Of a DNA stretch of 64,000 bases, positions 6,701 through 40,188 are shown piece by piece; the stretch's first letter is position 1, and every line of letters starts with the position of its first letter. A model generated the notes under the pieces. The model did no database searches and was not told the origin of the DNA. It saw nothing but the letters and a program-made list of their open reading frames with translations. Where the stretch lies: contig NZ_KB913037.1 in assembly GCF_000384295.1 (NCBI RefSeq), positions 4,474,868 through 4,538,867 of the forward strand, read 5' to 3'. The stretch is from Amycolatopsis balhimycina FH 1894. Its GTDB lineage: Bacteria > Actinomycetota > Actinomycetes > Mycobacteriales > Pseudonocardiaceae. The position numbers were made by a program, and so were the translations under genes.

Positions 6701-9700
6701 GTCGGTGACGTACAGGGTGGCCGACGGGGCTCCGCTGTTCCAGTAGGCGTTGTGGGTCTTGTACGTGCGGCCCTGGGAATCGTAGAAGGTGTCGGTGATG
6801 ATCCGGCCGGGCCCGTCGTCAGTGCGCGGTGCCTGGGTTTGGATGGTGCGGCCGAGACCGTCGACGAGCGTGTACGAGATCGCGTACTGCCCGTTCGCAA
6901 GCAGGTTCTGGGTGGTGACGTTGCTGACGCCACCGGCGTTGCGGACGCTGTAGCTGTAGATGACGTCCGCCGGGCCGTTCAGCGCCTTGCTGTGACCGGG
7001 CTTCCACACCGACAGCACACGGCCAAGAGCGTCCTGGGTCGCGTCGGTGCGCAACCCGCTCGCGTCCTTGCTGGCGACGGTGATGCCCGAGGCGGGGTCG
7101 AGGTACTTGGTGGAGGTGAACTTGGGCGCGTTCGCGGCAGCGCTGACCGGCGGTGCGGTGGTGTCGACCTGCGTAACCGGGCCACCCTCTGCCGGGGTGT
7201 ACGACGTTGTGCTGGTCAGGCCGAGTGCGTCGGTGGCGCTGACCGCCCGGCCGTACTTGTCGTACACGGTCGTCGCCGCAGGCGACTTGATCTTCTCCGC
7301 ACCACCCGTCGGCCAGTCGTCGAGACTGTCGATCTGGGTGATATTGCCTTCGGTGGGTGCCGCGCCGAAGGCCTGTTTGTCGAAGTAGGTCCGGCTGTCG
7401 CTGATGATGTTGCCGGGCCCCGGTGGATTGGTCTTGTCGTCGCAGACGCCGGAGATCTTCCGCACCTGGCTGGAGGAGTTCAGCAGCCAGGCGGTGGTGT
7501 TCTCCAGGTACGTGGTGAGAGTGCAGCTGGTCTGCTTCGGGTCGCTGGTATCGCCTTCGGTCTGCACCGCGGTCGCGAGCCCGTACTTGCCGTGGGTGGT
7601 GTGCGTGCGCGACACCCGCCAGGTGCTCGTGGTGTCCAGCCAAGTCCGGCTGCGGGTGGTGTCGGTGCCGGTGTAGGCCGCGGTGCGACCGTCAGCGTCG
7701 GTCGCGGTCGGGTCGGACACCCACGGCTCAGTCAGGGTGCCGCTCACGGCCTGGCCGTCGCGGTAGGTGACGGTCTCCCGGGTGACGCCGGCGACCTCCT
7801 TGCGGTCGGTGAACGACTCGTGCCAGTTGGGACTGGTGACCGTCGCGCCTTCCATACCGCGCAGGTAGAACGTCTCGGTGACCACCGGAGGCCCGGACGG
7901 GTCACCGCCCGCCGGGCCGAGCCCGGTGGTCGTCTTGACGTCGCCATAGCCGCGCCACTGCGACCACGTCCGGTACTTCGGGTCGCTGAACGGGTCGTCG
8001 TCGTAGTGCCACGCCGCGCCGCCGAGGAAGTCGTAGTGGGTGACCTTCTGCTGCGGCTGCTGCGTGGTGTTCGCGTCCTCGATGACGTCGGTGACCCGGA
8101 ACTTGGTGAAATAGTCCAGCACCGGATCAGTTGCGCCCGGCGGATTCCAGTACACCGGGTAGCACGACAGTGTGTTGTTCTTCAGGTTCGCCGGATCGGG
8201 CATCGGCCCCGCGGGCTTGCACTCGGGGTCGGCGTACTTGACGGTGGTGTAGCCGCCCTGCGGGGTGGTGATGGCGTCGATCCGATTGCGGCTCAGTGCG
8301 GTGTACTGGGTGTTGGCGTTGACTCGGTTGGCCATCGCCTTCGGGTGGAACGTCGTCGCGGGCAGCGTGATCGCCGAGCCGACGGTGTTCGAGCTCGCGA
8401 TCTTCCCGGTTTCGGTGATCGAGTCCAGCCACAGCGCCGTCTTGTTCCCGTCGGTGGTGGGTGGGAAGGACTGCGCGAGCGCCCACTCCCGGACGGGTTT
8501 CCACCCGGTGCCGCCGTCGCTGACCTGGGTGGTGAGCTTGGTGTAGCGCTTGCGTGAGAAGAAGGACGGTGAGTTGTAGACGCAGACCGCACCCGAGGCG
8601 CAGATCGTCTCGGACGGCACGTCCGGCCACGACGTCGCGGTCCCCGAGTTCAGCTGACTGGGGTCGCAGGTGATGGTGCCGCTGGGGAAGCACCGTTCGG
8701 CCGTGTCGAACAGTACTTGCGCAGGGGCGTGGCTGAAGGTGTCGGCGACCTTGGTGTTGAAGCCGTACTCGATCTTCTGCAGGTAGCCGCTGCGGGTGTA
8801 GGGCGTGCCGGGGTTGTTGGCGGTGGAGGCGTTGCGGTTGAGCCCGTAGTAGTTGGTCTCGGGCTGGTAGTAGTACGCGATCGCGTTGCCGTGCGGATCG
8901 ACGACGTAGTCGAGGTTCCAGCGCCACGCCCGGTTGCACCAGGACGCCGCGTAGGTCGCGGCGTTGCACGGCTCGAGGTTGTTGTTGCCGAACACCGGAA
9001 CAGTCCACGTCGACTGGGTCTCCGCCTTGCCCGCGGCCCAGCCGGGCAGGTGGTTCAGGCCGAAGAAGTACTGGACGCCGTCCGGTGTGGTGACCTTCCA
9101 GTACTCGCCGAACTTGTCGCCGTTGACGCCGCCGGTGAGACGTTCCACCCTCGTGCCGTCGTCGTCCTTCGGGTGCCAGGTCTGGGTGTTCTTGTCCAGG
9201 ATCAGATCACCGTTGGCGCCAGCGAAGGAGATGGTAGCGTTGTCGTTGTACCAGCACAGATCACCGGTCTTGGTCTGGCCGTTGTTGCCGCCCAGGTCCT
9301 GGCCGCAGCCCTTATAGCGACGTTCGATGAACCCGCCACCCGAGAGACTCCACCCGTCACCGACACCTGAGGCCTGGTTGTTGGTCGCCGAAGTCAGCCC
9401 GTCCACCGAGCTCGACGAGTAGTTCAAGCTGACCGACGGGCCCGTCCCGCCGAGCGCCGCGGGCGTCCCGATCGGGTACGAGTAGTCGAAGTCCGCCGAC
9501 GAACCACCCGCCGACCAGGAGCCGGCCGGCTTGAGGTCAGTCGCAGTGAAATCGCCGCCACCACTCTTGGTGTCGGCTTCGGCGGCCACCAGCATCGAGG
9601 TTGCTGCGGGGGCAGCAGCGCTCTGCCGCGATCCAGCCGGCGCCCCGGGCAGCGTGACGTCGGCGGCCACGTGCCGGGTCCGGGTGTTGTTGTCGGAGGT

Positions 9701-10356: not shown

Positions 10357-13300
10357 CTAGTGGGTGACGCCGAAGAGGTTGCCGGGGTCGTCGGCCCGCT
10401 TGTCGAAGTTGATCCCGGCGGTGCCGCGGAGACCGGAGTACACCCGCACCCCCGCGACGCCGCCGTTGAGGTTGTTGGTGCGCTGCCCGGTCCAGATCCC
10501 GCTGCCCATCAGCAGTCCCCCAATGCTGGCCCCCACGTCCACACCGGTGGCGTTCCCGGACGCGGTGTAGAACTTCCCGCGTTGCAGCTCGCCGTTTACG
10601 TAGAGTGACATCGTCTTAGTGGCGGCGTCGTAGCTCGCAGCGAGGTGGGTCCACTGGTTGTCGACCGCGTCGAGGTCGCTGTACTCCGTGGACGCGAACA
10701 CGCCGCCGGCGTTGGGCACGGTCAGGATCAGGCTCCACGCCCCGTGATCACGGCCGTTGGCGTCCTTGTAAGGGCGGTAGCTGAGGAACAACGGCGAGAA
10801 CTGTGCCTCGTCGGTACTGATCAGCGTCCGCGTCGCCGGGTCGACCTGGCCGGAGGCGGCGACGTCGGCCGCGGTCCAGGTGTGCTTCACCCAGCCTTCG
10901 ACCGTGAACGACTTGTCCGTGCGCAGGTTCGCCGGCCGCGGTCCGACGAGCCGGCCGGTCCAGGTGTTGTCGAACTGCGCGGCGCAGCCGGTCGGCGATC
11001 CGCTGCCGTCCGTCTCGGTCGTGAGTGACACACCACCGCTCGCCGCGGCCGTCGCCTGCGCGGCGGTGTCGACATAGCGCAGGCCGTTCATCGCCGCGAT
11101 CTGATCGTCGGTGAGATCCCTCGACCAGACCCGGCCCTGGTCGAGCACGCCCTTGAACAGGTTCTTCGCACCTGGCTCAGCGCCGAGCAGCAGCGGTCCG
11201 TTCGCCGTCCACGGCGCGCCCGCGGTGGCATCGGCTTCGTGCTTCCCGTTCACCGAGAGCCGAAGGCGCGATGCGGTGCTGTCGAACGTCGCCGTGAGCA
11301 AGGTCCACACCCCCGCCTGCGGCACCGAGGTACCCGTCGCCCACGTCATGGCCGCCGCGGCGTCGTCGGCCGGGGACATCCCGAACGCCCAGCGATTCGC
11401 CGCCTTGTCATAGCGCAGGACGAAGTTCGCGGCGTGACTGCCGGCCAGGGACAGCACGGTGTAACCGGCGTTGAGGTCGGTGGGGTTCACCCAGGCGGAC
11501 ACGGTGAAGGACTCCGCGGTGTTCACCACCGGACCGCTGGTGGACCCGTAACCGGTGGCACCGTCGAGTTGCAGACCGCCGCCGCCGTGACCTGGTACCC
11601 ATGCGTATCCGCCGGTGAGGGTGATGGTGTTGCCGTAGCCGGTGCTGTCGGCCGCGGTGTTTCCGCTGGTCTGCCCCAGTGCCCAGCTCGCCTGCAGCGA
11701 CGGGACGCGGGAGGTCGCGGAAATCAGCTCCGGCCCACAGCCTTCGGCTAGGCCGTAGTTCGCCAGGGGAACAGCGACGCCGGCCAAGTCGTGGACATCT
11801 TGTCCGGACAGCGTCCGCTGCCACACCTGCAGGTCATCGAGCGACCCGTGGAAGAAGTCGGCGCGAGCCCCGGACCACTTCGTCGCGCCCAGCACCGCCG
11901 GTCCCGTCGCGGCCCACGGCTGGGCGATCACCGTGCTCTGCTTCGCGCCGTCGACGTAGAGCGTGGCGACCTGTGTCGACGCGTCATACGTGCCCGCCAC
12001 ATGGGTCCACACCCCGATTTGGGGCGGCTTGCTGGAGAAGGCCCAGGCGGCCGCCGGTGTGGCCGAATCTCCTGTCGTGACGCGCATCGCCCAGGCGTTG
12101 TTTTCCTTGTTGTACTGCAGCGCGAACGGCATCGCCTGGGTCCCGTCCTGCGCGATGACGGTCTGCGAATGCGTCGTATCGGCGAGCTTCGCCCAGGCTG
12201 CCACCGTGAACGACTTCGACGGGTCCAGCACCCGGTCGCCGGTCTGGGCGTAGCCGCTGGTGCCGTCGAGGGTGATCGCGCCCTTCACGCCGTCGCTGTA
12301 GCCACCGGTGTCGGGGTGGGTCCAGCTGGTGCCGTGGTTGTAGCCCACACCTCGGGTGACACCCCCGGACGCGGTAGCCGGATGGGTCGGCAGCGTCGCG
12401 TTGTCCGGCGTCGACGAGGCACTGTCGATCAACGCCGTGCCGGACGGTTCGTCGGCTCCCCAGGCGGCGACCAGGTTCTTGCCGGGGGTCAGCGGCTGGA
12501 CGTGGTAGGAGCAGGACGGCGGGTCCAGCGTGGGGTTCGACTCGGGGAGCACCACGCACTGCGCGTCCGGGCTCGGCATCCCAGCCTTGTTCACCGACTT
12601 GATCTTGATCAGGTTCTGGTTGCCGCTGAGCGCGGTCGCCTTGATGCCGCCGACCGCGACCATCTTCCCGTTGGCGTCCGTCGACTGCGTCGCCGGAACA
12701 CTCGGCGAACCTTGGACCTGCGGCTCGGAACCATCGGTCGTGTAGATGAAATGGTCGATGTCGTAGAAGTTGTCGGTCGCCATCCCGGTCCAGATGCTGA
12801 ACTCGACCGGATCACCCTGCACCGCCGGATGCGTCCACGACGGCATCGCCACCACCGGTTGCGCCGGGACCTTGCTGTCCACGGTGAACTCGCAGTTGCC
12901 GACCCAGTTCGACGACAGCTCACCGTCAGATGCCTGCATCGACCAGTTGTAGATCCCGTCCTCGTTGATCCACCCCGCCGGGACCGCCGCCAGCTGCGCG
13001 GTCGCCTGCTGGTTCTGACCCGGCGTGCCCACCGCGACCAAGTTGGCGCCGTTGTCGTGCGTGTACACGTTGTGCCCCAGCGCGCCGTAGGCCACCGCGA
13101 ACTTCGCTAGCAGCGTGCCACCGTCGGGATCGGACACCTTCCCCGCCAGCTGCGGGTTCTTCGTGTACACCCACGGCCGGTTCGCCCCGCTCGTGCACGG
13201 CAGCAACCCGTTCTGCATCGACAGCGCCGTCGGCAGGTTCGGCGGGGAGTCGTAGTTCACCTGCAGATAGGGGTTCAGCGCGAACCGCCGCCAGGTGGCC

Positions 13301-14688
13301 ACACCGCCGCCCTCCCCGTCCTCCACCAGCGCCAGCGACACGTTCGGCCAGCGGCCCGCCGCCGCGTCCTGCGCGGCGTGCGTCGCGTTGAACTGCCCAG
13401 TGACGTCCGGCGCGTTGCCGCAGTTGGCCACGTTCACCGACGACATGTAGTAGCTCCAGCCCGGCTGGTGCGCCCACGTGATGTCCCCACCGAACGGGCC
13501 GGTCAGCCACAGGTCGGTGTCCGCCGCGTTCGAGCAGTTGTGAGTGTGCGTGACCGTGGTGTTCAGGCTCGCCGAATGCACGACCGTCCCGGCGATCTGC
13601 GCGGTGTTCATCTGCAGGTACGACCGCGACGTCCCCGCCCTGTCATCGGTCTCGTAACCCGCTTTGAGATCGGACAGGTCGCCGTCGGAGGCGTTGTAGT
13701 TGTGCGCGTCCGAATACCCGGACTGCACCACCGCATGCGCCTGCATCCCGCAGGTGGAGCACAAGGTGTCCGGGTCGAGGGTCACCGGGTACCGCGTCGC
13801 CGGATCGGCCAGGAACGCCTGGTCGGGTGAGATCACGACCGTGTCCGAGGAGAGCGTCACACCCATGACCGCCTCGCGGCGGCCACCGCCCTCACCGAGC
13901 TGCCGCTCGGCTTCGGAGCCCGCGCCGGAGGAGTCCCACATCCGCGACGCGTCGCCGGTGAAAACGACCGCTCCGGTGTCGTCCTTGACCTCCAGGCCGT
14001 CCGAAGGCTGGGCACCGGAGGTCGGCGTGGCGCGTCCGGCGCCCGGCGCGACGGACACCGTGGTGTTCTTGGTGTGCAGCCCGAACGGGATGTCACGCAG
14101 CCCGGGGTTCTGTGCGGCTTCCCGGGTCTTGACGACGAGGTTCTCGGTGTAGCCCTCCGGCAGCGCGCGGACCGTCAGGTCGACGCCCGGGAGCACCTCG
14201 GCGTAGGTCGCGGTGTCACCGGACAGCGACGGTTCCGGGAGGTCCTTCGTCCACTTGAGACCGACCTCCTTGCCCGCCTCGCGCGCCTGCACGATCGGCG
14301 TGGCCACGGAGCCGGTGCCACCAGCGTTCAGCGCGAGGTCCAGCACCGTCGCCTTCGGTGTCACCGACCCGTCGGCGTTGCGGACGAGCGTCGTGTCGAT
14401 CGGTGTCCAATCCGGACCGTGCTTGACCCGCACGGGGTGCGTGTATTCGGTCAACGTCCACGAACCGTTTGGATTCGCCACCGTCTGCGACGTCTCCGTG
14501 GTCTTCGACGTGACCAAGATCTGTTTGCCGGCTTCACGCGCCCACGCGGTCGCCGTCGCCTCGTCCTGCGCCTGGTCAGGCACCGAAACCGCAGCCGACA
14601 CGACCGGCGCCCCCAGCACCGGCAGACCGAAGACGCCGACGCCAGCAGCCAGGAAAAGCGCGCGCCAACGCACACCAAAAAACCCCAC
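10357..14688 (-). CDS. Large secreted LamG-domain protein paired with the RHS toxin
   Basis: About 1443 aa. I prefer GTG 14688, which follows GAGGGGGA, over the ATG at 14718. A signal peptide (RWRALFLAAGVGVFGLPVLG) is followed by a region with paired cysteines (CSTCGMQ) and then by three LamG/concanavalin-like jellyroll domains, at roughly residues 820-960, 1010-1140 and 1190-1430. They carry repeated signatures such as KSFTVAAWAKL, ESFTVSAWVNP and KSFTVEGWVKH, with YVDG/YVNGE strands. LamG domains bind glycans or proteins, so this is probably a cell-surface partner that displays or delivers the RHS protein 48 bp downstream. LamG-RHS pairs are common in actinomycetes. No catalytic residues are evident. 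Confidence 0.85.
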   Translation of the reverse strand: MGFFGVRWRALFLAAGVGVFGLPVLGAPVVSAAVSVPDQAQDEATATAWAREAGKQILVTSKTTETSQTVANPNGSWTLTEYTHPVRVKHGPDWTPIDTTLVRNADGSVTPKATVLDLALNAGGTGSVATPIVQAREAGKEVGLKWTKDLPEPSLSGDTATYAEVLPGVDLTVRALPEGYTENLVVKTREAAQNPGLRDIPFGLHTKNTTVSVAPGAGRATPTSGAQPSDGLEVKDDTGAVVFTGDASRMWDSSGAGSEAERQLGEGGGRREAVMGVTLSSDTVVISPDQAFLADPATRYPVTLDPDTLCSTCGMQAHAVVQSGYSDAHNYNASDGDLSDLKAGYETDDRAGTSRSYLQMNTAQIAGTVVHSASLNTTVTHTHNCSNAADTDLWLTGPFGGDITWAHQPGWSYYMSSVNVANCGNAPDVTGQFNATHAAQDAAAGRWPNVSLALVEDGEGGGVATWRRFALNPYLQVNYDSPPNLPTALSMQNGLLPCTSGANRPWVYTKNPQLAGKVSDPDGGTLLAKFAVAYGALGHNVYTHDNGANLVAVGTPGQNQQATAQLAAVPAGWINEDGIYNWSMQASDGELSSNWVGNCEFTVDSKVPAQPVVAMPSWTHPAVQGDPVEFSIWTGMATDNFYDIDHFIYTTDGSEPQVQGSPSVPATQSTDANGKMVAVGGIKATALSGNQNLIKIKSVNKAGMPSPDAQCVVLPESNPTLDPPSCSYHVQPLTPGKNLVAAWGADEPSGTALIDSASSTPDNATLPTHPATASGGVTRGVGYNHGTSWTHPDTGGYSDGVKGAITLDGTSGYAQTGDRVLDPSKSFTVAAWAKLADTTHSQTVIAQDGTQAMPFALQYNKENNAWAMRVTTGDSATPAAAWAFSSKPPQIGVWTHVAGTYDASTQVATLYVDGAKQSTVIAQPWAATGPAVLGATKWSGARADFFHGSLDDLQVWQRTLSGQDVHDLAGVAVPLANYGLAEGCGPELISATSRVPSLQASWALGQTSGNTAADSTGYGNTITLTGGYAWVPGHGGGGLQLDGATGYGSTSGPVVNTAESFTVSAWVNPTDLNAGYTVLSLAGSHAANFVLRYDKAANRWAFGMSPADDAAAAMTWATGTSVPQAGVWTLLTATFDSTASRLRLSVNGKHEADATAGAPWTANGPLLLGAEPGAKNLFKGVLDQGRVWSRDLTDDQIAAMNGLRYVDTAAQATAAASGGVSLTTETDGSGSPTGCAAQFDNTWTGRLVGPRPANLRTDKSFTVEGWVKHTWTAADVAASGQVDPATRTLISTDEAQFSPLFLSYRPYKDANGRDHGAWSLILTVPNAGGVFASTEYSDLDAVDNQWTHLAASYDAATKTMSLYVNGELQRGKFYTASGNATGVDVGASIGGLLMGSGIWTGQRTNNLNGGVAGVRVYSGLRGTAGINFDKRADDPGNLFGVTH

Positions 14689-14825
14689 GAGATCCCCCTC
14701 GCCCAAGAGCACCAGCACACAGCCGGGCCCCCGACGAACCCAAGATCACCCTGACCGATCAGACCGCGAAAAGGAATAGGCCAAGCGGGGTATTCACCTC
14801 AAACCCACCAGCCTAGCGAAATGCC

Positions 14826-27870: not shown

Positions 27871-27995
27871 CGGAAACGCACCGTATCCGGATCGGGGACG
27901 ATTGATCCGCCATGCGGACGCTCACAAATCCCGTTTCGTGTTGCATGATGATTACTCTCCCCGATCGCGGGGCGTGTCGTGAGGGAGGACCTGAC

Positions 27996-28172
27996 ATGGG
28001 ACAGGTGCGGGGCGAAGTCACCACGAGCATGGTCGATCTGAGCGCGTTATCGCTGGCCGAATTGCGCGACAGTGACGACCCGGCCCTGCTCAGCTCGCTC
28101 CGGCTGGTCACCGGGCAGGCCGAATGCAGCCGGACCGGCGTTCTCCAGAACCAGGCACCGGACGCTCCTTGA
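27996..28172 (+). CDS. FxsA-like RiPP precursor peptide (atypical C-terminus)
   Basis: 58 aa from ATG 27996 behind GGGAGG. The leader MGQVRGEVTTSMVDLSALSLAELRDSDDPALLSSLRLVTGQAE closely follows FxsA precursors (xxSLVDLxxLSLAELxxxDxPALxxSLxRV). FxsA peptides normally end in FxSxx, modified by a radical SAM enzyme into a cyclophane. This one ends VLQNQAPDAP with no aromatic residue, so it either belongs to a different subclass or lost its core by frameshift. It lies 26 bp upstream of the aKG-HExxH hydroxylase gene, which supports a precursor role. No radical SAM gene is in the window. Confidence 0.6.
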   Translation: MGQVRGEVTTSMVDLSALSLAELRDSDDPALLSSLRLVTGQAECSRTGVLQNQAPDAP

Positions 28173-28198
28173 GCCGGGGTTAGGGAACCTACGACGCG

Positions 28199-29977
28199 AT
28201 GCTGGACACCCACCGGGTGTCACTGACGAACCTCGACGCGATGGCCGCGGGGAGGAGTGACGTGGCCGTCGTCGGGCAGCTCAAGCAAGCCGACCGCAGC
28301 AGGCGGCTGACGTTGCTGCGTGCGGTGCTCGACAGCGCCGCCGAGCTGAAGCCCGCGATGTCCCCGCTGCCACCGCTCGACGAAGCGTGGACGTTGCTGA
28401 TCGAGGCGCAGCGACGTGATCCAGCCGCGACCGACCGGGTCATCACGCACCCGCACACTGGCCTGTGGGCGGTGAACGTCCTGCGGCGGCTGGCGAAGGG
28501 CGGGCCCGGAGACCCGCCGCTGTGGGCCGATCTCGGCGGCCTCCACCGGCTGGCTTCCGCCGCGGCGATCCGCGCCGGGCACGACTTCCGGTCCCGGGTA
28601 CCGGTGTGGCGCGGCCGGGTCATGCTGCCCACACTCGGCCTCGCCGACGTTCGGAGCCGCCGGGAGTGGGATTTCGCGCAGGTGCACGCCGAATGCGGCA
28701 ACGTCCTCGTCCGGGGCCCGGCCGGGAGCATGCAGCTCCCGGACGACAGCTCGGCCGACGGCCCGGGCTGGCTGGCCCTGCGTGCCGTGCGCACGGGCGA
28801 AGGCGAGCTGTGGCTCGACGACATCGACCCGTACCGTGAGTTCGACGGCCCTGTCCCGCCTCATCGGCTCGACGTCGGCGAGGTGGCGCGGTGGGCGGAC
28901 AGCCTGCGGGACACCTGGCGGCTGCTCACCGAGCACCATCCCGCGATCTTGTCGGAGCTCGCCGCCGGGCTCAGCACCCTCGTGCCGCGGGCGGCCGTCG
29001 ACCGGTTCACCCCCTACAGTGCGTCACACAACGAGGTCTTCGGTTCTCTGGTCCTGTCCCGGCCGTCGGACGCAACAACGTTCGCGGCAACCCTTGTACA
29101 CGAGTTCCAGCACAGCAAACTCGGCGCTTTGCTGGTTCTAGTCGATCTGCTCGATCCCGCCGGAGACAACGAAACCCCGAGGCTCTACGCGCCGTGGCGC
29201 GACGACCCACGGCCGCCGACCGGGCTGCTGCACGGCGCGTTTTCGTTCCTGGGTGTCACCGCGTTCTACCACGGGCACTACCCGGTCGAGACGGGACTCG
29301 CAGCCCGGGCCGCGCAGTTCGAGTTCGCCTACCGGCGCGAGCAGGCGGCGCACGCCATCAGCACCCTGCTCGCCGACGCGGTCCCCTCGGCGGTCGGCCG
29401 TCGGTTCCTGACCACGGCGCGGGAGCAGCTTCGCGAGTGGGGCACGGAACTGTTGCCGGACGACATCATGCGCGCGGCCGGCCGGGCGAACCTCGACCAT
29501 CGCCTGTCCTGGCGGCTGCGGCACCTGCGGGCAGCAGACCGGGTGGTCGTGGAGCTGGCCGAGGCCTGGCTGCGGAACCGGCCGTGTCCGCTCCGGGCGG
29601 CCGCACCGCCGAGCCTGACTCCGGCGGTGGGGGCCGCCGGGCACGCCCGGCTCGCGCTCACGCGGACGTGGCTGACGGACCCGGACCTGTACGACATCTA
29701 CCGCGCCGAGCCGGACCTGGCGATGGCCGAGATCGCCGGAATGTCCGCGGCGGACCTGGCCCTCGTCGACGGCGACATCACGACCGCGGCCGAGCTGTAC
29801 CGACAGCAGCTCATGACCGCGCCGGATTCAGCGGTGGCGTGGGCCGGGTTCGCCCTGGCGACCCGGCATCCGGCTCTGCTGAGCCGGCCGGAGCTGGTGC
29901 ACGCGGTGCACCGCGCGGTGCGGTCGCGTCGTGGGGTGGTGCCGAATCCGGATCGGCTGGCGCGTTGGCTCAGCTGA
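28199..29977 (+). CDS. aKG-HExxH-type peptide beta-hydroxylase
   Basis: 592 aa. The N-terminus (RVSLTNLDAMAAGRSDVAVVGQL...RRLTLLRAVLD) and the metal motif HEFQHSKLGALL near residues 303-314 match the HEXXH-motif family (TIGR04267). This family was first taken for peptidases and is now annotated as alpha-ketoglutarate-dependent peptide beta-hydroxylases acting on RiPP precursors. The His-Glu-x-x-His pair supplies iron ligands. Downstream, GAFSFLGVTAFYHGHY and a helical C-terminal half are typical. The substrate is probably the FxsA-like peptide just upstream. It is cytoplasmic, with no signal or membrane segment. Transcription ends at the shared terminator 29989-30029. Confidence 0.85.
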   Translation: MLDTHRVSLTNLDAMAAGRSDVAVVGQLKQADRSRRLTLLRAVLDSAAELKPAMSPLPPLDEAWTLLIEAQRRDPAATDRVITHPHTGLWAVNVLRRLAKGGPGDPPLWADLGGLHRLASAAAIRAGHDFRSRVPVWRGRVMLPTLGLADVRSRREWDFAQVHAECGNVLVRGPAGSMQLPDDSSADGPGWLALRAVRTGEGELWLDDIDPYREFDGPVPPHRLDVGEVARWADSLRDTWRLLTEHHPAILSELAAGLSTLVPRAAVDRFTPYSASHNEVFGSLVLSRPSDATTFAATLVHEFQHSKLGALLVLVDLLDPAGDNETPRLYAPWRDDPRPPTGLLHGAFSFLGVTAFYHGHYPVETGLAARAAQFEFAYRREQAAHAISTLLADAVPSAVGRRFLTTAREQLREWGTELLPDDIMRAAGRANLDHRLSWRLRHLRAADRVVVELAEAWLRNRPCPLRAAAPPSLTPAVGAAGHARLALTRTWLTDPDLYDIYRAEPDLAMAEIAGMSAADLALVDGDITTAAELYRQQLMTAPDSAVAWAGFALATRHPALLSRPELVHAVHRAVRSRRGVVPNPDRLARWLS

Positions 29978-29988
29978 AGCTGATACAG

Positions 29989-30029
29989 AAACGCCTCCGG
30001 TCGAGTATTTCCTTCACCCGGAGGCGTTT
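29989..30029. terminator. Perfect bidirectional terminator between convergent operons
   Basis: AAACGCCTCCGG (29989-30000) pairs perfectly with CCGGAGGCGTTT (30018-30029) around a 17-nt loop. The A-rich and T-rich ends make it functional in both directions. It separates the hydroxylase gene (plus) from the vWA/NB-ARC/TPR gene (minus). Confidence 0.85.
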
Positions 30030-30041
30030 GTCCGAAGGCGC

Positions 30042-33000
30042 CTAGATCTGCATCGGGTCGATGTCGCAGTTGGCACGGTGGTTGAACTGCGCGTCGGTGG
30101 TCGCCGGGTGCTCCGGGCCGAGGACCTGGCGCAAGCGCTGGACGGCGGTCAACTGGAGTCTGTCCGCCTCGTCGACGCGACCGAGCCCCCGCAGGTCGAG
30201 GGCCTGGTTGACCAGAAGCGCCAGCGACGACGGGTGATCTGGGCCGAGTATGCGCTCGGAGCGTTCGAGGGTGGCTCGATCGAGTGCGTAAGCGCCTTCG
30301 TGGTCACCGGACGCGGCCAGGTCGCTGGCGTGGTTCGTCGCGCACACCAGCGTGAACGGATGCTCGTGGCCGAGAGCTTCGGTCATGTCAGCCAGCGCTC
30401 GCTCGTTCAGCGCGCGGGCTTGCCCGACCGAACCGTGCAGCCGCAGTGTGACGGCGAGGTTGGTCGCGGCGGCCACGCTGAACGGGTGCTTCTCGCCCCA
30501 CGTCGCTTCGTAGAGGCCTTTGACATGCTCACCGAGCCGCTGGGCCTCGGTGAGGTTGCCGTCCTGGCGGTGCTCGATCGACAGGTCCATCGTCGCCGAC
30601 AGCGCGTCGGGGTGGGATTCACCGTATTTGGTGACCAGACCGTCGGTGGCCTCCATGGCCAGGGTGAGCGCCTTCTTGTCGCGGTGTCGACCCGCTTTGC
30701 GGTAGGCGATCGCGAGGTTCTTGACGGCGGAGAGAGTCATCGGATGCCGTGCGCCGAGGTGGGCCCGCATCCGGCGCACGGTGTCCTCCTGCTCGGTGCG
30801 CGCCCGCAGGTAGTCGCCCGTCTCGCGCAGGTCGACGGACCAGTTGTCCAAGGTCAGCAGCGTGTGCCGGTGGTCCGGACCCAGAACGGTCTGCTTGCGC
30901 TGCGCTGTCTGCTCGTCCAGGTCGCGCGCCGTGGTGAAGTCGCCGACCAACCGTAAGCTCAGCGCGTAGTTGTTGGCCGCGGCGAGCGTGTCCGGGTCGT
31001 CCTCGCCGAAGCGTTCCAGCGCGCTCCGATAGGCAAATTCGTTCATTTGCCGCGCGCGTTCGAAGTCGCCCTTCGCGCGCAGATCCGAGGCGACGCCATG
31101 CATGGTGAGCAGCGTTTCCTCGTGCTTTTCGCCGAGCGTTTCCTGCATCAGCGCCAACGTCCGCTCTGCGACGGCGCGACCTTCGTCGAACCGGCCGAGC
31201 GCGCGCAGCGTGCGTCCCCACCACCGCGAAACGACCAGTGTGTCGGGGTGTTTTTCACCGAGCTTCTCTTTCCAGAACTGCGCGTATTCCCTGGCCATCT
31301 CGAGCGCGCCGGCAGGGTCACCGAAGGCGAACAGGTAGTTGACGGCGTTGATCGCCGTCCGCCGTACCCAGCGGTCGGTGCAGTTGCGGGCGTCGACGGC
31401 CCGGATGTGCGGCAGCATTTCCGCGTAACGCGACCAGTAGTCGACCGAGTCGGGTAGCTTGGGGTCGCGGGTGGCGAGTAACAGGTGCGCGGTGTGGCGC
31501 ACGCGCTCCTGGTCGTCTGGTCCCAGTTTGTTGCGCAGCACCAGCTGCACGAGCCGGTGCAGCTGGAGCGTGTCGCTGCGGTGATCGATCTTGGCGAGGC
31601 TGTAGCGGGTGATCTCCCGGATCGCCCGGCCCAGCTGGATGGGGTCGCCCAGTGTCTCTTCCAGCACCTCGGACGTCGGGACGTTGCGGACACCGCTGAA
31701 CATTGCCCGGGGAATCGGCTCCGGGGAGAAAAAAGCACACACCTCGAGCAATTCCAGCGCGCCGCGGTTTTCGTCGCGCAGCCTGTCCAGCGAAACGTTC
31801 CAAGCGGCTTCGACCGCGACGTCGTAGTCCGCTGGCGGCCGGGTTTGCAGCAGTTCGGTGCGCTTGCTCTCGAACAGGTCCAGGTACTCGTCGGTCGCCA
31901 TGCCGGTTTCGGCGCGCCAGGCCGCGGCCTGCTCGACGGCCAGCGGGAGGTCGCCGAGCACGGTGGCGAGCCGGTCGGCGTCCTCGTCGCCGAGGTCCCG
32001 GTTGCGCCGCTGGAGCAGCGCCCGGCTTTCCTCACGCTGGAATACATCGACCTCCACGGCCTGCGCCACCGCGGACCATTGCGGGTTCCGGGACGTCACG
32101 AGGATGTGGCCCTCACCCCGACGGGGCCAGAACTCGCGGACATCCTCTGGCCGGTCGGCATTGTCGAACACAAGCAGCCAGCGGCGATAGGGTTCGCCGG
32201 AGCCCAGCGTTTCCAGCACGGCGGGCACTGCGGTGTCCACCGACTGCTCCACCGGGAGATCCAGCCGCTTCGCCAGTTTCACCAGCGACGCCTGGATTTC
32301 GGACGGGTTCTCCGAGGGAATCCACCAGATCAGGTCATATTCTTCGGCGTGGCGGTACACGTATTCTACAGCGATCTGCGACTTGCCGATGCCGCCCATG
32401 CCGTGCAGCGCGCCCGGCAGCACCGCAGTGCGGGTCGACTTCGAGAGCTCATCGTGCAACGCCTGCAGGATGTCCCCGCGGCCGATGAAGTTGATGTTGC
32501 GAAGCGGGACTCCGCCCCAGACGGCAGGCTGCCTGCCGGAGCGGCGGACCTCAGTGCCTGGCTCCGAACCGGTGGTGGTCACTGAAGAAATCCTTCGAGG
32601 CTTGATCGGTTCAGCTGCGGAATCTGACGGGGCGGACCTTACCGCTTCGCCATCTAGAGTCGCACTCGCCCCGGGATCGTTACGGGACCTCTGAAAACGG
32701 TCCAAGGCGTCACCCAATCGGTTTGCCCGACGGGTGTACGGGCCGGACAAGGCTCTCAGAACGTCACGTTGAACGGCTATCAGAGGCTCAGTGCGCGAGG
32801 TAACCACCGGTAGGGGGGCGTCGTCTGGAGCGGCGAGGGCGCTCCGCAAATTCGCCACCGAGGGCTCTTGCGGCCCAAGGACGTCTTCGACTACCCGCTG
32901 GACCCGTGCGGTGTCCGCGCGCGACGCCGTCGCCAGCAACCTGCGGCGCAGCCCCGGGGCGAAGTCATACTCGACAGGCGGCGTTTCGCCGTCCGCGGTT

Positions 33001-34226
33001 GCCGGAACCCGGCGAAGCAGGTGCCCCAGCTGGATCTCCGCCAGGTGCGCGGGCCGGGAGTGGGGCATCAGCGTGCCGTGCACCGCCTGCATCACGCGGA
33101 GGGTCAGCGGCGCCGCGGCGAGCAGCCCGGCCAGCCGGATCGCGGGCGAGGTGCTGGTGGCGAGGAAACGGTCGAGCCTATCCGCCGGGGAAAACGCGTC
33201 TTCGGCGGGTGCCGGTTCGCTGTCCGGGGGGTCCTCAACGAGCGACGGTGCCAGCACGGGGAGCCGCACCCCGGCCACGCCGGAGATAAGTTCCGCCCAG
33301 CTGCGCAGGTGCCTCGGTTCCAGCTCCAGCACGGGAATGGGGTTCGCGGTGCCGGGCAGGACGCCGCGCAGGGTCTGCGACACCGCGTGCACTCCGGTCC
33401 AGCTCCAGCGTTCACCCGGCAGGAGGTGGAAGAGGGTGACCTGGCACGTCGTGGCCCACAGGGACAGTAGCTGGAACATCGATCCGCTGCGCCACGCCGG
33501 GCCGACGCCATCGCTGAGGACGACGATGATCCGCCGGCCGCTGGGTTCGGCGAGCTGCGCCGGTTCGCAGCCGGTGCCCGGCGTGGTTTCCACCGCCCGC
33601 ACAACCGGATCGTCGGTGTCCACCGAGACCGTCTTGACGTCGTTGAACGCGCCCTGCCGTTCCAGGAGTGCGCGGAACGCGACGGTGGTGCGTTCCCAGA
33701 ATTCCATGGAAGAACCGCGGTCGAGGACCAGCACGACCCCGAAGGGGTGGCCCCGGGAGGGCCGGTGCACCGGCAGCCACGCCCGGGTCTCCGCCGCGGC
33801 GACCGCGGTTGCCTCTTCGTCCAGTTCGACTTGGTGCTTCAGCCGGACGAGGCGATTCAGCGGCCGCAGCGCCTTCGCCAGTCCCTTAGGCAGGCCCGGC
33901 GGCATCGAGCGGATCGGCGACACCGCCGCGAGTTTCCGTGCGCGCTGCCGCACCGGGATCGGCTCGACCGGAGTGGGTGCAGGTTCGGCCGGGCCGGGTA
34001 GCCGGGCCGGCCTCGGCACCTGGCGGTCGAGCGGCGGGTGTTGGGCGCGGGACTCCGGCGGCGACGGCGTGGGTTCGGGCGGGGGAGACGGCGGGGGCTC
34101 GGGGCGCGGATCCGCGGCGGCGCGCGGCGGTTCGCCCGCCGCGATGCGGGAGGCAAGCCAGACCGCGTCGGCGATCTCGTCGGCGTTGAGCGCCTCAGTG
34201 GCGAGCTGGTCGACCGGGGCAGCCAT
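30042..34226 (-). CDS. vWA-like / NB-ARC / TPR protein (FxSxx-COOH system TPR type)
   Basis: 1394 aa. Residues 1-130 are proline-rich. Residues 140-420 form the SAV_2336-type N-terminal domain, a vWA-like fold with VVLVLDRGSSMEFW (degenerate MIDAS). From about 575 there is an NB-ARC module: NFIGRGDILQALHDEL, Walker A LHGMGGIGKSQIAVEYV near 612 and RRWLLVFDNADRPEDV. Residues about 960-1385 carry TPR units with the GExHPxTLxxxxNLAxxLR motif. This architecture matches the tetratricopeptide protein of FxSxx-COOH systems. It is the third gene of the VMAP-MoxR operon, 3 bp after the MoxR stop. I infer that the vWA part docks with MoxR and VMAP and the NB-ARC-TPR part senses a trigger. Confidence 0.85.
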   Translation of the reverse strand: MAAPVDQLATEALNADEIADAVWLASRIAAGEPPRAAADPRPEPPPSPPPEPTPSPPESRAQHPPLDRQVPRPARLPGPAEPAPTPVEPIPVRQRARKLAAVSPIRSMPPGLPKGLAKALRPLNRLVRLKHQVELDEEATAVAAAETRAWLPVHRPSRGHPFGVVLVLDRGSSMEFWERTTVAFRALLERQGAFNDVKTVSVDTDDPVVRAVETTPGTGCEPAQLAEPSGRRIIVVLSDGVGPAWRSGSMFQLLSLWATTCQVTLFHLLPGERWSWTGVHAVSQTLRGVLPGTANPIPVLELEPRHLRSWAELISGVAGVRLPVLAPSLVEDPPDSEPAPAEDAFSPADRLDRFLATSTSPAIRLAGLLAAAPLTLRVMQAVHGTLMPHSRPAHLAEIQLGHLLRRVPATADGETPPVEYDFAPGLRRRLLATASRADTARVQRVVEDVLGPQEPSVANLRSALAAPDDAPLPVVTSRTEPLIAVQRDVLRALSGPYTRRANRLGDALDRFQRSRNDPGASATLDGEAVRSAPSDSAAEPIKPRRISSVTTTGSEPGTEVRRSGRQPAVWGGVPLRNINFIGRGDILQALHDELSKSTRTAVLPGALHGMGGIGKSQIAVEYVYRHAEEYDLIWWIPSENPSEIQASLVKLAKRLDLPVEQSVDTAVPAVLETLGSGEPYRRWLLVFDNADRPEDVREFWPRRGEGHILVTSRNPQWSAVAQAVEVDVFQREESRALLQRRNRDLGDEDADRLATVLGDLPLAVEQAAAWRAETGMATDEYLDLFESKRTELLQTRPPADYDVAVEAAWNVSLDRLRDENRGALELLEVCAFFSPEPIPRAMFSGVRNVPTSEVLEETLGDPIQLGRAIREITRYSLAKIDHRSDTLQLHRLVQLVLRNKLGPDDQERVRHTAHLLLATRDPKLPDSVDYWSRYAEMLPHIRAVDARNCTDRWVRRTAINAVNYLFAFGDPAGALEMAREYAQFWKEKLGEKHPDTLVVSRWWGRTLRALGRFDEGRAVAERTLALMQETLGEKHEETLLTMHGVASDLRAKGDFERARQMNEFAYRSALERFGEDDPDTLAAANNYALSLRLVGDFTTARDLDEQTAQRKQTVLGPDHRHTLLTLDNWSVDLRETGDYLRARTEQEDTVRRMRAHLGARHPMTLSAVKNLAIAYRKAGRHRDKKALTLAMEATDGLVTKYGESHPDALSATMDLSIEHRQDGNLTEAQRLGEHVKGLYEATWGEKHPFSVAAATNLAVTLRLHGSVGQARALNERALADMTEALGHEHPFTLVCATNHASDLAASGDHEGAYALDRATLERSERILGPDHPSSLALLVNQALDLRGLGRVDEADRLQLTAVQRLRQVLGPEHPATTDAQFNHRANCDIDPMQI

Positions 34227-34229
34227 GCC

Positions 34230-35246
34230 TCAGTCCGTTCCCCGGACGTTGAGCCGCCGCCACAGGGTGTCGCGCAGCACGTCCCAGCTCGCGTCGTTCT
34301 GGTGGGCGCCCGAGGTGGTGAGGTGCACGGCGTTCAGCAGCTGGTCGTTGGCGAGGCCGCCCTCCCGGCCGCTGTTCGCGAGGAACTCGTGGATCAGGTC
34401 GTCGCTGCGCGAGGGCACGTCGTGGAAGTGCGCCGCGACCATGCTGACGAGCTCTTCGAAGCCGGGCTGAGGCATGTCGAGCCGCAGGCAGCGTCGCAGG
34501 AACGCGGGCGGGAAGTCCCGCTCCCCGTTACTGGTCACCACCACGACAGGGAACGCGCGGCACCGCACGTGCCCTTCGCGCACCGTGGCCCGGCCGCCGC
34601 GGTCGTGTGTGAAGACGGTGACTTCCGGCTGGGTGGCGGCGATGCGGGTCAGCGGCTGAATTTCGAAGTCGCCGTCCTCGAACACCGCCAGCAGGTCGTT
34701 GGGCAGGTCGATGTCCGACTTGTCGAGCTCGTCGATCAGCAGCACGCGTGGCCGGTCGTAGGGCAGCAACGCGGTGCCGAGCGGCCCGAGACGGACGAAC
34801 GCGCCGATGCCTGCGCCATCCTCCGCCGCCGCGGCCTGGACCCGGCCGATCGCGTCGTAGGTGTACATCCCGTCGCGGGACTCGGTGCGGCTACTGATCG
34901 GCCAGCGCAGCACCGGGCCGAGCCCCAGCTCTCGCGCGATCTTGTAGGCCACGCTGGACTTGCCGGTGCCGGGGTTGCCGGTGATCAGCAGCGGACGTCG
35001 CAGCAACAGCGCTGCGTTCACGGTCAGGATCTCCTCGGGCGCCGCGTCCCGCGCCGAGGCCACGGCCGGCACCCCGAGCCGCCGGACGAACTCGGCGTCG
35101 GATGCCGGCGGGACCGGCAGCGGCGGCCCGCCGTCGAACGTGCGCCAGCTGGGCGGGGCGGGCAGTTCGGCGGCCTCCTCGACGGCGCGCGGCGGCAGCC
35201 CGTGACCGTGGTAGAGGCACCATGGCGGGATCTCGGCACCACTCAT
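34230..35246 (-). CDS. MoxR-type AAA+ ATPase
   Basis: 338 aa from ATG 35246, which overlaps the VMAP stop (ATGA). AAA+ motifs are clear: Walker A GNPGTGKSSVAYKIA, Walker B RVLLIDELDKSDIDLPNDLL, sensor 1 VVVTSNGERDFPPAF and arginine finger region LRRCLRLDMP. MoxR ATPases act as chaperone-like remodelling machines with vWA-domain partners. In the vWA-MoxR-VMAP systems described in actinobacteria, all three proteins are encoded together, as here. The 110-residue N-terminal extension (PPWCLYHGHGLPPRAVEEA) is specific to this subtype. Confidence 0.85.
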   Translation of the reverse strand: MSGAEIPPWCLYHGHGLPPRAVEEAAELPAPPSWRTFDGGPPLPVPPASDAEFVRRLGVPAVASARDAAPEEILTVNAALLLRRPLLITGNPGTGKSSVAYKIARELGLGPVLRWPISSRTESRDGMYTYDAIGRVQAAAAEDGAGIGAFVRLGPLGTALLPYDRPRVLLIDELDKSDIDLPNDLLAVFEDGDFEIQPLTRIAATQPEVTVFTHDRGGRATVREGHVRCRAFPVVVVTSNGERDFPPAFLRRCLRLDMPQPGFEELVSMVAAHFHDVPSRSDDLIHEFLANSGREGGLANDQLLNAVHLTTSGAHQNDASWDVLRDTLWRRLNVRGTD

Positions 35247-36748
35247 CGCACGGGCACCTCCTCGATCGGGGCAGCAGGCGGGTCCTGCGGCTCGACGGGC
35301 CTTGCCGGGTCGTCCCACAGCAGCGAAACGCGACTGCCGACGTGTGAATCGGGTCGGGCCGCCTGTCGGGCCCGACCGCGCAGCAGGCGTAGGTGTTCGA
35401 CGAGCTCGGGCAGGACGTCGCGCAGGGACTTGATCTCCGCCTCGAACGCCGGGCGGGCGGACTCCACGCGGTGCCAGATCATCACCGGCACCCCGCTGCG
35501 GACCCCCACGAGGACCTCCCCGGGGTCCGCGCTGTCCGGCGCCGAACGCAGCACCAGGGACACAACTTTCTTCTGGGCGGCCAGCTTGGCGTCGAGCGCG
35601 GTCAGGTGCCGCCACTTGGCGCCATCGCTCCACAGCCAGTGCTCTTCCGGTGTCGTCAGCCCGGCGGGCACCTGCTTGAGCAGGTCCCACCGGCGCCGCC
35701 ATTCCCGGTGCCAGCGCGGCGAGCGCGCGCGGTCGAGGCTACGGACGACGACCTGGTAGTGCAGACCGAGCGGGCGGGGCAGCGAGCTGCCTGCCTCCAG
35801 GTCCCACTGGTCCACGGGAAGGTTCAGCAGCGAGTACGGGAGCAGGAACTCGATCCGGATCGCCGAGGCGTCCTTCGCCCAGCCGGTCTCGGCCTCGGCG
35901 ACCAGCTCCGCCATATGCGCGCGGACGGCGTCGAGGTTGCCGCTGAACGGTTCGCTCCGCAGCGGCCGCCAGGCGGCAGGATCGTTGTGCCGCCAGTGAA
36001 CCACCACGAGCGTGCCGGCTTCGAGGAGGTCCGGTTCGATGCGGACGACGAGGTAGGCGACGACCTTCTCGGCCACGGCCGGCTCAGTGGCCTGCATCAG
36101 TCGGACGGCCTTGATCTGCTCGGTCATGCCCAGGCGCGCGGCCTGCCGGTCGTTCCACGCACGCAGGCCCGCCGCGCGCCGGTCGTCGGCGGCGGCGGCC
36201 GCGAGGTACTCGACGAACAGCAGCAACGGCGGAACCCCATCCGGTTGCGCGTTGATCCGCTCCAGCGTGGCCAGGGCGTCCGCCGGGCGATGGTCGGCCG
36301 AGGTCAGCTCGGCCGCGGGCCCGGCGGCCGCCCGGACCAGCTCAGCCAGCCTGCCGCTGGGATTCTCGCCGAGCAGGTGCAGCAGCTCCTGGCGGTCGTC
36401 CTCGGTGACCAGGTCCAACGCGGCCCTGTCTTCGTCCAGCGCGACCATGTCCTCAACGGCGGACCGGGCGCGCTGCACCGGGATCGACCCGGGCTCCATT
36501 TGCTCGATCGCGTCGACGAACGCGCTGAGCGCCCGCGGATCCCTCCGGCGGCAGGCTTGCACGATGCCGATCAGGCTCGCCCGGGCGGTCGGGAGTTCCT
36601 CGACGACCAGCGGTTTGCCGAGACGGTCGGACAGCAGCTCCAGACAGAGGCGGCGGCTGCCAGGGTCGCGCAGGGGCGGGATCTGCTCCAGGCAGTCGAT
36701 GAGAAATCCCAGGGAGCTCGGATAGTCAGCACCATTCCACAACGTCAC
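35243..36748 (-). CDS. VMAP (vWA-MoxR-associated protein)
   Basis: 501 aa from GTG 36748 behind GGGAGGGCGG. The first 90 residues (YPSSLGFLIDCLEQIPPLRDPGSRRLCLELLSDRLG) look like an effector-associated domain (EAD), a small helical adaptor that recruits effectors through like-like contacts. A helical linker follows. The C-terminal half fits the VMAP-C domain: VVAYLVVRIEPDLLEAGTLVVVHWRHND, RIEFLLPYSLLNLPVDQWDL and EVLVGVRSGVPVMIWHR. VMAPs connect a MoxR/vWA chaperone module to an effector. It is the first gene of the operon and sets its promoter region. No effector with a matching EAD was identified in the window. Confidence 0.75.
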   Translation of the reverse strand: MTLWNGADYPSSLGFLIDCLEQIPPLRDPGSRRLCLELLSDRLGKPLVVEELPTARASLIGIVQACRRRDPRALSAFVDAIEQMEPGSIPVQRARSAVEDMVALDEDRAALDLVTEDDRQELLHLLGENPSGRLAELVRAAAGPAAELTSADHRPADALATLERINAQPDGVPPLLLFVEYLAAAAADDRRAAGLRAWNDRQAARLGMTEQIKAVRLMQATEPAVAEKVVAYLVVRIEPDLLEAGTLVVVHWRHNDPAAWRPLRSEPFSGNLDAVRAHMAELVAEAETGWAKDASAIRIEFLLPYSLLNLPVDQWDLEAGSSLPRPLGLHYQVVVRSLDRARSPRWHREWRRRWDLLKQVPAGLTTPEEHWLWSDGAKWRHLTALDAKLAAQKKVVSLVLRSAPDSADPGEVLVGVRSGVPVMIWHRVESARPAFEAEIKSLRDVLPELVEHLRLLRGRARQAARPDSHVGSRVSLLWDDPARPVEPQDPPAAPIEEVPVR

Positions 36749-38404: not shown

Positions 38405-39780
38405 GTGGATGTCGCGCCCCGTCATCGTTCCTGGATAGCCGCCGTCCATGCATCGCGGGACGACTACACGCCGCTTGGAACCGCGGTGGTACTGGACGAG
38501 CGTCGGCTGATCACTTCGGCGCACGTGACGCGCACCGGTGATCGCGAGCGACCCCAGCTGTGGGTCGCGTTTCCGATGGCTGGTCCGGATGTGATGCTGA
38601 CGCGCGTCAAGGTACAACACATCCGCGGCGGCAATGGCGGATCTTGCCGTACTCGAACTCGAATCGCCGGTCCCCGCTGGGGTCTACGCTGCACAGATCC
38701 GCTGCCCACCGCCGGCTGAGTTGGAGGGTCTGCGATGGTGGGCGTTCGGCTTCCCTGGTGGGGACTGGCAGGGCAATACTGCCAACGGCAAGCTTGGTCC
38801 CGCCCTCGGCTATGGGTGGGTGAGACTCGACAGCGAGTCCCGCTATCTTGTCGAGCCCGGGTTCAGCGGCGGTGGCTTGTGGTGCCCGGACTACGACGCG
38901 GTCATCGCGGTCGTGGGCGAGGCCAACCAGCGCGGCGACGGTCGGGCCGTAACTCTGCACCACGCGGACGGTTTCCTTCCGCATGAGAAGATCCGTATCC
39001 TCGCGCGATGGAGTATCGGAGCCAGCGACGAGATCGCCCAAGCCGCGTGGGGCTGGACGCTGGCCACAGACAGGGAAGCCGACAGACATTGGCGCCCCCG
39101 TGCTCGCGGTGTGATGACTGCAGCGGAGGGCGGACAGCGATTCCGCGGACGACACTCCGCGTTACGTCGGATCATCGCCTGGCTTGACCAGCCCGTAGCG
39201 GATCGGAGGGTTCTGGTGGTTACCGGGTCTCCGGGCGCAGGTAAATCCGCTGTTCTTGGCCGAATCGTGGTCACCTCTGATTTCACCTTCCCATCGGCAT
39301 CCGACGAGATAAACGACGATGATGTTCCCAGGGCGGCCATCGGGTCGGTGGCGTGCGCTATCCATACCAAAGGCAAGACAGCGTTGGACGTGGCCCGAGA
39401 AATCGCCCGCGCTGCCTCGACTCCGATTCCGGAACGGGTGGAGGATCTACCCGCACTGCTGAGAACCGCGCTGACGGAGCGCCGAGAGCAGCCAAGTCGG
39501 TTCACTCTGCTCATCGACGCCCTGGATGAGGCCAGCACCCCCGCGCAGGCGCGAGCCATCGCCCATGAGCTGATTGTCCCGATTGCCAGCGGATGCGCAG
39601 ATGTGGGGGCCCAGCTACTCATCGGCACCAGGCGCTACGACAGCGAAGGTGATCTGCTGCGGGTTCTTGAGCCGGGAATCACCACGATTGACTTGGACGC
39701 ACCTGAGTACTTCGAGGTGACCGACTTGGCCGCTTACGTGGTAGCGACTCTGCAGCTTCGCGGCGCGGCACCAGCACCCG
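38405..39780 (+). pseudogene. Frameshifted trypsin-like peptidase / STAND NTPase
   Basis: From GTG 38405 the frame gives the N-terminal trypsin lobe with the catalytic His (RRLITSAHVTR). After a frameshift near 38630 it continues with the catalytic Asp region (ADLAVLELESPVP) and the Ser motif (VEPGFSGGGLW). A STAND NTPase follows: FRGRHSALRRIIAWL, Walker A VVTGSPGAGKSAVLGRIV and Walker B-like RFTLLIDALDEAS. All three catalytic residues are encoded, but in two frames. The protein is also cut at about residue 450, where it joins unrelated sequence, so the usual C-terminal sensor repeats are missing. It once formed a Trypco1-trypsin-STAND conflict system with the gene upstream. Confidence 0.8.
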
Positions 39781-39787
39781 AGGCGGC

Positions 39788-40140
39788 GTGCTCAAAGCGG
39801 AAGCCGCGGTGCGCTACGCCGAGGTCCTCGCCGGCTCCGGCGTGCACACGCTCGGCGACGTGGCCACGCTCCTGTCCGACCTCACCCGGCTCGACGCCGT
39901 GGAAAGCCGACTGCGAGCCGTCCCCGGCAACGGCGGCACGACGTCCGGCTCGGCTACCTCTGGATGCTGGCCGACACCGACGAACAGGTCAAACCGGACC
40001 GGAAGGTGCATCGCTGGCTGAGTCGTCACCTCGGCCACCAGGTCGACGTCCCGGCCGCGCGACAGCTGCTCGCAGACGCCGCCGTCGAGCTGGGCCGGAC
40101 GCCATGGGAACTCGACCACACGATCTGGAAGGCCGCCTAA
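39788..40140 (+). pseudogene. C-terminal remnant of an endonuclease III-like/HhH-type protein
   Basis: The frame MLKAEAAVRYAEVLAGSGVHTLGDVATLLSD...LRAVPGNGGT shifts near 39945 into RLGYLWMLADTDEQVKPDRKVHRWL...TPWELDHTIWKAA. The order helix, VPGNGG-type loop, YLWML, KPDRxVxRWL and PWELDHxIW resembles a conserved actinobacterial helix-hairpin-helix (HhH-GPD-like) protein. It lacks its N-terminus and has one frameshift. It is joined directly to the broken STAND gene, marking a recombination point near 39780. Confidence 0.5.
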
Positions 40141-40188
40141 CTGTATGAGGCCATGACGTTGGTGACGCCTGCGTGGAGCTGGGATGCT

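Follow-up and report, generated by a model that had tools for sequence, protein, structure and literature searches.

The window analysed here, a stretch of 64,000 nt from the single-contig genome (10.86 Mb) of Amycolatopsis balhimycina FH 1894, contains five genes that form one recurring, co-inherited module: a precursor peptide and an HExxH protein on the plus strand converge on a minus-strand operon for a VMAP protein, a MoxR ATPase and a vWA/NB-ARC/TPR protein. By its sequence, the module is a VMAP ternary conflict system of the peptide-coupled kind, and the core of its peptide is of a type not listed before. The account that best explains the whole, which we hold with somewhat better than even confidence, is that the peptide is hydroxylated and serves as ligand of a nucleoside triphosphatase (NTPase) switch. 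A preliminary description of this DNA had considered the full combination without radical SAM uncharacterised; it had in fact been described from genomes by Kaur et al. 2020 (PMC7159879, which is cited, like PMC12636437 and PMC13060819, from its available portions). New beyond that work are the peptide type, the likely chemistry of the enzyme and the protease-like shape of the VMAP subunit. The features are the following:

27984..27989, plus strand: GGAGGA, likely ribosome-binding site for the peptide, six bases ahead of the ATG of its gene, by reading
27996..28172, plus strand: precursor peptide, 58 residues, with FxsA-like leader
28137..28169, plus strand: conserved peptide core, residues 48-58 (GVLQNQAPDAP), from alignment
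28199..29977, plus strand: HExxH protein, 592 residues, predicted α-ketoglutarate-dependent peptide hydroxylase
29099..29113, plus strand: HEFQH motif, residues 301-305
29989..30029: bidirectional hairpin resembling an intrinsic terminator, where the two halves converge
30042..34226, minus strand: fusion protein of 1394 residues, its vWA-type N-terminus (NF041121) followed by NB-ARC and TPRs (NF040586)
30045..31511, minus strand: TPR region, residues 906-1394, boundary approximate
31512..32510, minus strand: NB-ARC region, residues 573-905, boundary approximate
34230..35246, minus strand: MoxR AAA+ ATPase, start re-assigned, N-terminal motifs WCLYHG and PSWRTF
35243..36748, minus strand: VMAP, GTG start, with EAD2 (18-98), VMAP-M0 (115-216) and VMAP-C (249-481) by Pfam
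35306..36064, minus strand: VMAP-C region (residues 229-481), modelled with a CHAT/separase-like fold

The five genes lie at the stated places, and the close relatives of the genome are Amycolatopsis species. The ternary order VMAP (36748-35243), MoxR (35246-34230), vWA/NB-ARC/TPR (34226-30042) holds strictly from 5' to 3'. The VMAP stop overlaps the MoxR start (ATGA) and three bases separate the MoxR stop from the next start. The triad with a vWA protein fused to NB-ARC-TPR was correctly recognised: VMAP matches PF20028 with 154.7 bits, and the 1394-residue protein matches both NF041121 (322 bits) and NF040586 (909 bits), together with Pfam NB-ARC, DUF7779 and TPRs. The Pfam scan of this protein found no VWA domain, hence its vWA label rests on NF041121 and gene position. 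MoxR had been called as a 490-residue open reading frame (ORF), whose start is too early; the N-terminal motifs fit the ATG at 35246, where WCLYHG and PSWRTF match by eye the family motifs WxhapG and PsWRxa (PMC7159879). A scan of seven window proteins (the peptide was outside it) against PADLOC-DB returned no system, with weak IetA ATPase matches of the MoxR ORF only. Between the halves, the arms of the hairpin (29989-30000 and 30018-30029) are 12 nt long and perfectly complementary, as announced for a bidirectional terminator, with a fold z-score of -3.3 and one of 200 shuffles equally good. At the same place locus L001 carries a different hairpin-like sequence (by eye), suggesting that the hairpin is kept by position and not by sequence.

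Recurrence of the module was followed in 60 genomes of the genus and 61 of the order, G000 and G016 being common to both samples. Within the genus, VMAP-C occurred in 37 genomes, the HExxH protein in the same 37 and neither in the other 23 (Fisher p 4e-17). There were 56 VMAP-C matches, 54 of them over the cut-off, and 47 of these 54 lay at most 12 kb from an HExxH match; of the 62 HExxH matches, 49 were linked. The nearest HExxH gene was convergent for 40 of the 47; the remaining seven stood in tandem modules, with the neighbouring module's HExxH nearest and a convergent one 6.4-7 kb away. All three VMAPs of the A. balhimycina genome adjoin an HExxH gene. As a control, the TIGR04267 search was also run on 14 further genomes; one of them gave a match, which stayed under the cut-off. 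In the order sample VMAP-C exceeded the cut-off in six genomes and HExxH in 15, including all six; eight of nine VMAP copies were at most 12 kb from an HExxH match, seven of these convergent, and nine of the 15 HExxH genomes had no VMAP-C match. VMAP is therefore rarely without HExxH in this sample, while HExxH is often without VMAP. Independence of the halves in most genomes, which the preliminary description named as refuting a single system, is not seen in the genus sample; in the order sample, however, most of the HExxH genomes are without VMAP-C, and in PMC7159879 about 20% of actinobacterial VMAP systems are peptide-coupled.

Gene order was examined in the best 80 of 149 loci, chosen by HExxH similarity and biased in that sense. 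An FxsB-like gene, found by a search from one L013 ORF and labelled from cysteine motifs and place and not by family scan, directly precedes HExxH in 10 of the 80, and a more distant one occurs in L004 and L006. The A. balhimycina genome has no FxsB match over the cut-off (the closest, 27.8 bits, is about 195 kb away); 11 of 14 control genomes gave matches and none over the cut-off. The other 70 loci contain NB-ARC-TPR in 63 cases, vWA in 60, MoxR in 56 and all four parts in 41. Most missing parts correspond to ends of the available DNA, and in six of the seven loci without NB-ARC-TPR the contig breaks off no more than 2.5 kb upstream; L015, L017 and L044 are short of parts within full flanks. 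Where vWA and NB-ARC-TPR both matched they share one frame (58 of 60 loci). Of the 63 loci with NB-ARC-TPR, 14 are convergent as in the window (among them Amycolatopsis, Umezawaea, Lentzea, Kutzneria and Frankia) and 49, mostly Streptomyces, co-directional. Because it recurs across genomes, the arrangement is not due to chance.

The components also show co-inheritance. From 110 systems, including 41 Amycolatopsis modules (the window module, L089, L090 and L132-L169) drawn from the 47 linked ones and those of the own genome, the 102 with an NB-ARC-TPR longer than 780 residues were used for trees (93 tips for MoxR, 80 for VMAP, 99 for vWA). Each of the four minor core classes described below forms a single clade in all six trees (HExxH, NB-ARC, TPR, vWA, MoxR and VMAP). 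In the 10 genomes with several sampled modules the nearest relative of a module was never in the same genome, whether judged by HExxH or TPR (0 of 22 each) or by VMAP (0 of 21). For 16 of 22 modules the nearest HExxH relative was also one of the three nearest by TPR, where 2000 random draws gave 1.7 on average and 9 at most. Correlations of distances with HExxH (0.84-0.90) were reached by none of 999 permutations. Largely congruent trees and shared presence in 37 of 60 genus genomes support well the earlier proposal that the two halves are one system. In the own genome a pair of paralogous modules with R-x-D peptides stands in tandem (L089 and L090, at ~3.65-3.68 Mb), and there is a fourth, broken cluster (L091, at ~1.144-1.152 Mb) with HExxH in two frames, a partial vWA, and MoxR and NB-ARC-TPR in pieces. 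The gene ahead of VMAP in L089 and L090 resembles the EAD2 gene of L002 and has no counterpart in the window. A cyclase reading of its N-terminal half, made by eye, was discarded: Pfam gave only EAD2 (L002, L010, and L090, for which it is thereby confirmed), and a PDB search brought up nothing beyond a guanylyl cyclase at E 0.066.

The preliminary description had presented the convergent partners as an FxsA/HExxH pair, which is right for the enzyme (TIGR04267, 149 bits) and for the peptide only in its leader. Against TIGR04268 the peptide scores 24.4 bits (cut-off 28), over profile positions 1-31 of 44. Its terminus, NQAPDAP, has neither FxSxx, nor an RxD end, nor four consecutive acidic residues, and the missing FxSxx end together with the absence of FxsB ruled out an FxSxx assignment. 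The available text of PMC7159879 describes RxD and acidic types without radical SAM, in which the AP-ATPase-TPR is fused to the vWA protein, and FxSxx and FtsH types, the only ones with radical SAM. The window shares with the peptide-coupled VMAP systems of that article the VMAP-MoxR-vWA order, the AP-ATPase (NB-ARC)-TPR on vWA, and HExxH plus precursor, but the peptide end fits none of the four types, the fourth of which belongs to FtsH ternary systems, the third component here being VMAP. Likewise FxSxx-COOH systems (TIGR04268, TIGR04269, NF040586) have in common with it the leader, the HExxH enzyme and an FxSxx_TPR equivalog above cut-off, whereas the window lacks the FxSxx terminus, a TIGR04268 match over the cut-off and a nearby FxsB.

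In an alignment of the peptide with its 22 homologues, G48, V49, L50, N52, A54 and P55 are invariant, Q51 and Q53 almost so, and the tail beyond P55 is variable. A leader-bearing precursor precedes HExxH in 107 of 110 systems, a count biased upward because the search pattern presupposes the leader motif. Common to the leaders is an L-x-D-L-like stretch, after which comes a helix-like pattern of hydrophobic residues, and the cores vary: by regular expressions, 81 systems have an R-x-D/E end, five QNQ (the window included), five VQxQ, five CDQK, four SSSVGG and seven another core, and in three no precursor was found. Ten radical SAM loci were left out of these counts, as were two FxsB loci that yielded no peptide (L170 and L171), and L001 was dropped as a duplicate of L133. 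Without identical sequences R-x-D/E ends account for 79 of 105 precursors, and none of the 105 is of the acidic type with four consecutive acidic residues. Among the precursors the commonest final four residues are ARAE (17), GRAE (17), KRVD (12), ERID (9), GRAD (7) and ARAD (6); one precursor of L145 (G023:C19) ends in RVS, not R-x-D. A Crp-like regulator (cNMP_binding, HTH_Crp_2; L003, 8908-9690, plus strand) lies immediately ahead of the peptide in L003, and HTH ends like it are found ahead of the peptide in several more loci of the ERID type.

The HExxH protein agrees with α-ketoglutarate-dependent HExxH hydroxylases in family profile, motif and fold. Its H301, E302 and H305 are invariant among 56 aligned proteins, and its fold is that of an oxygenase resembling ChlH. 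With ChlH, PflC/PosC and PesO (PMC12636437, PMC13060819) it shares HExxH and the ChlH fold, and the window core, like PflA/PosA, presents Gln/Asn and then Ala. Most VMAP-linked precursors have an R-x-D-like end, as do PflA/PosA (ARMD) and PesA (R(V/T)DN), a likeness drawn in this analysis; in the ARMD of PosA, R, M and D are each dispensable singly (PMC12636437). As far as the cited portions show, these enzymes for ribosomally made, modified peptides differ from the window module in belonging to biosynthetic clusters without NTPase switches, and PflA has a leader from the nitrile-hydratase class. PflC and PosC hydroxylate a run of Gln and cleave at the Ala that comes next (PMC12636437), from which Q51-Q53 and A54 are predicted as targets in the window peptide.

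On the operon side, the N-terminus of the NB-ARC-TPR protein varies while its adjacency to peptide and HExxH persists (seven proteins scanned). It is vWA in the window, TIR in L013 and L025, and EAD2-VMAP-M0 in L015, L017 and L076, where the examined flanks gave no separate VMAP, MoxR or vWA match; in L011 and L014, which hold a second ternary set, the protein has its own N-terminus of ~650 residues. L013, L025, L075 and L076 are radical SAM loci, and L025 holds a ternary set as well. TIR and MinD-like forms are reported in PMC7159879, and the EAD2-VMAP-M0-NB-ARC form does not appear in the available portion of that article. Since NB-ARC-TPR is constant despite these exchanges, it would be the likeliest partner of the peptide. 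The model of VMAP-C has a CHAT/separase-like fold, and the domain is apparently a dead CHAT-like one. The catalytic His and Cys, invariant in 29 CHATs, have no counterpart in 50 VMAPs, by an alignment of low confidence: no Cys at 401-408 and His at any of positions 362-381 in at most eight, with His frequent elsewhere (251, 347 and 426). VMAP-C thus differs from Csx29/TPR-CHAT and separase in these residues and also in lacking profile similarity (hhalign probability 0.07% against CHAT; decoys, 0.1-0.5%). The searched open-access literature, with most subscription papers outside its scope, showed no VMAP-C/CHAT link in the passages seen.

In the mechanism proposed, with the conserved leader as its gate, the HExxH protein would β-hydroxylate the core with Fe, O2 and α-ketoglutarate, most likely at Q51, N52 or Q53, and oxidative backbone cleavage at the invariant A54 may leave a short C-terminal amide. 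The modified peptide would stay inside the cell as ligand of the TPR part and determine whether the NB-ARC switch can oligomerise, by activation or by restraint. MoxR and the vWA part could act as an ATP-driven threshold device, VMAP, with its EAD2 adaptor and apparently dead CHAT-like domain, might supply assembly or trigger, and the output would presumably be growth arrest or death of the infected cell. That the peptide serves the NTPase machine as signal or effector, as the preliminary description had it, is plausible.

Several points weigh against this proposal. L002, of the same core class as the window, has E-N-S-Q instead of Q-N-Q-A. The targets are predicted from PflC and PosC, whose substrates carry another leader class, and the best fold match of the HExxH protein is SjiH, for which no function was found in the literature. 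Plain physical linkage would give the same agreement of trees; in L011 and L014 the VMAP, MoxR and vWA used for them came from the second ternary set and not from that adjacent to HExxH; and HExxH and TPR trees conflict for six of 22 modules, so that tandem modules seem to have exchanged parts. In L044 peptide and HExxH stand with no NB-ARC-TPR match, and G023 (L145) has two HExxH genes for one ternary set. The open-access literature searched, which leaves most subscription papers out, showed no experimental work on a system of the window type in the passages seen. Moreover, PflC also hydrolyses a peptide that lacks the leader (PMC12636437), a point taken up below.

Among the other explanations, one makes the hydroxylase a sensor: steady hydroxylation of the peptide would keep the switch off until loss of oxygen, iron, α-ketoglutarate or host expression during infection releases it. 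The chemistry of the enzyme family, the separate convergent transcription unit and the failure to find a shared exporter in 14 diverse loci are consistent with this arrangement, but activation by the peptide is equally compatible, and we regard the sensor reading as unlikely. A minor share of probability likewise goes to export of the modified peptide as toxin or signal to neighbouring hyphae, with the NTPase machine as immunity or response, as the toxin or signal suggested by Kaur et al. (PMC7159879) would imply. Outside the five genes, 15 ORFs of those 14 loci match at least three other loci (ORFs of at least 90 residues with high third-position GC); by Pfam they are NB-ARC-TPR, VMAP, MoxR-like, EAD2 or nothing over cut-off, with no transporter or peptidase among them. 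In three of four Streptomyces loci examined (L009, L033 and L048) a Na/H exchanger gene stands between the halves on the opposite strand, which also counts against this reading. It is improbable that the HExxH protein, as a metallopeptidase of the zincin-like kind, does no more than cut the precursor and so release its C-terminal part; this is the published reading, the protein being treated as a peptidase in PMC7159879, the motif is intact, and hydrolysis keeps some likelihood because of the activity of PflC on a leaderless peptide. That a stand-alone peptide cluster lies by chance beside an unrelated conflict operon is hardly credible, the HExxH genomes of the order without VMAP-C being outweighed by the joint presence in the genus, the tandem paralogous modules, the largely congruent trees and the recurrent convergence.

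Around the module, a minus-strand ORF at 25911-27137 matches AfsR and FxSxx_TPR profiles weakly and over a short length; it may be what is left of the stand-alone NB-ARC-TPR gene that G025, G030 and G039 have near peptide and HExxH. Close to the module a plus-strand ORF (38634-40148) matching AAA_16, NPHP3_N and nSTAND1 would encode another STAND-like NTPase. Farther away lie an RHS-repeat/SpvB-domain protein and a laminin-G-like protein (3761-10309 and 10357-14718, minus strand); between ~14.7 and 27.2 kb few ORFs have a clear coding signature by a simple third-position GC test. In Streptomyces, ORFs with sub-cut-off similarity to Abhydrolase_6 are placed between ternary operon and peptide (L028, 7201-8469; L009, 7229-8560, plus strand).

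The ATP-driven switch of these systems resembles animal and plant immune receptors. A tentative and rather doubtful extension joins the separate observations: an NLR-like switch would make its own oxidised ligand, an oxygen- and α-ketoglutarate-dependent enzyme hydroxylating the core and trimming it oxidatively, core and TPR receptor would be swapped together between paralogous modules to give private pairs, and the VMAP scaffold would derive from a dead CHAT/separase protease. If the proposed mechanism is true, it would give the immune-like NTPases of filamentous actinobacteria, a large and uncharacterised family, a concrete and testable ligand, the enzyme of these systems would be re-classed from peptidase to hydroxylase, and the unexplained VMAP-C domain would be tied to caspase-clan proteases, inviting comparison with the cell-death machinery of animals.
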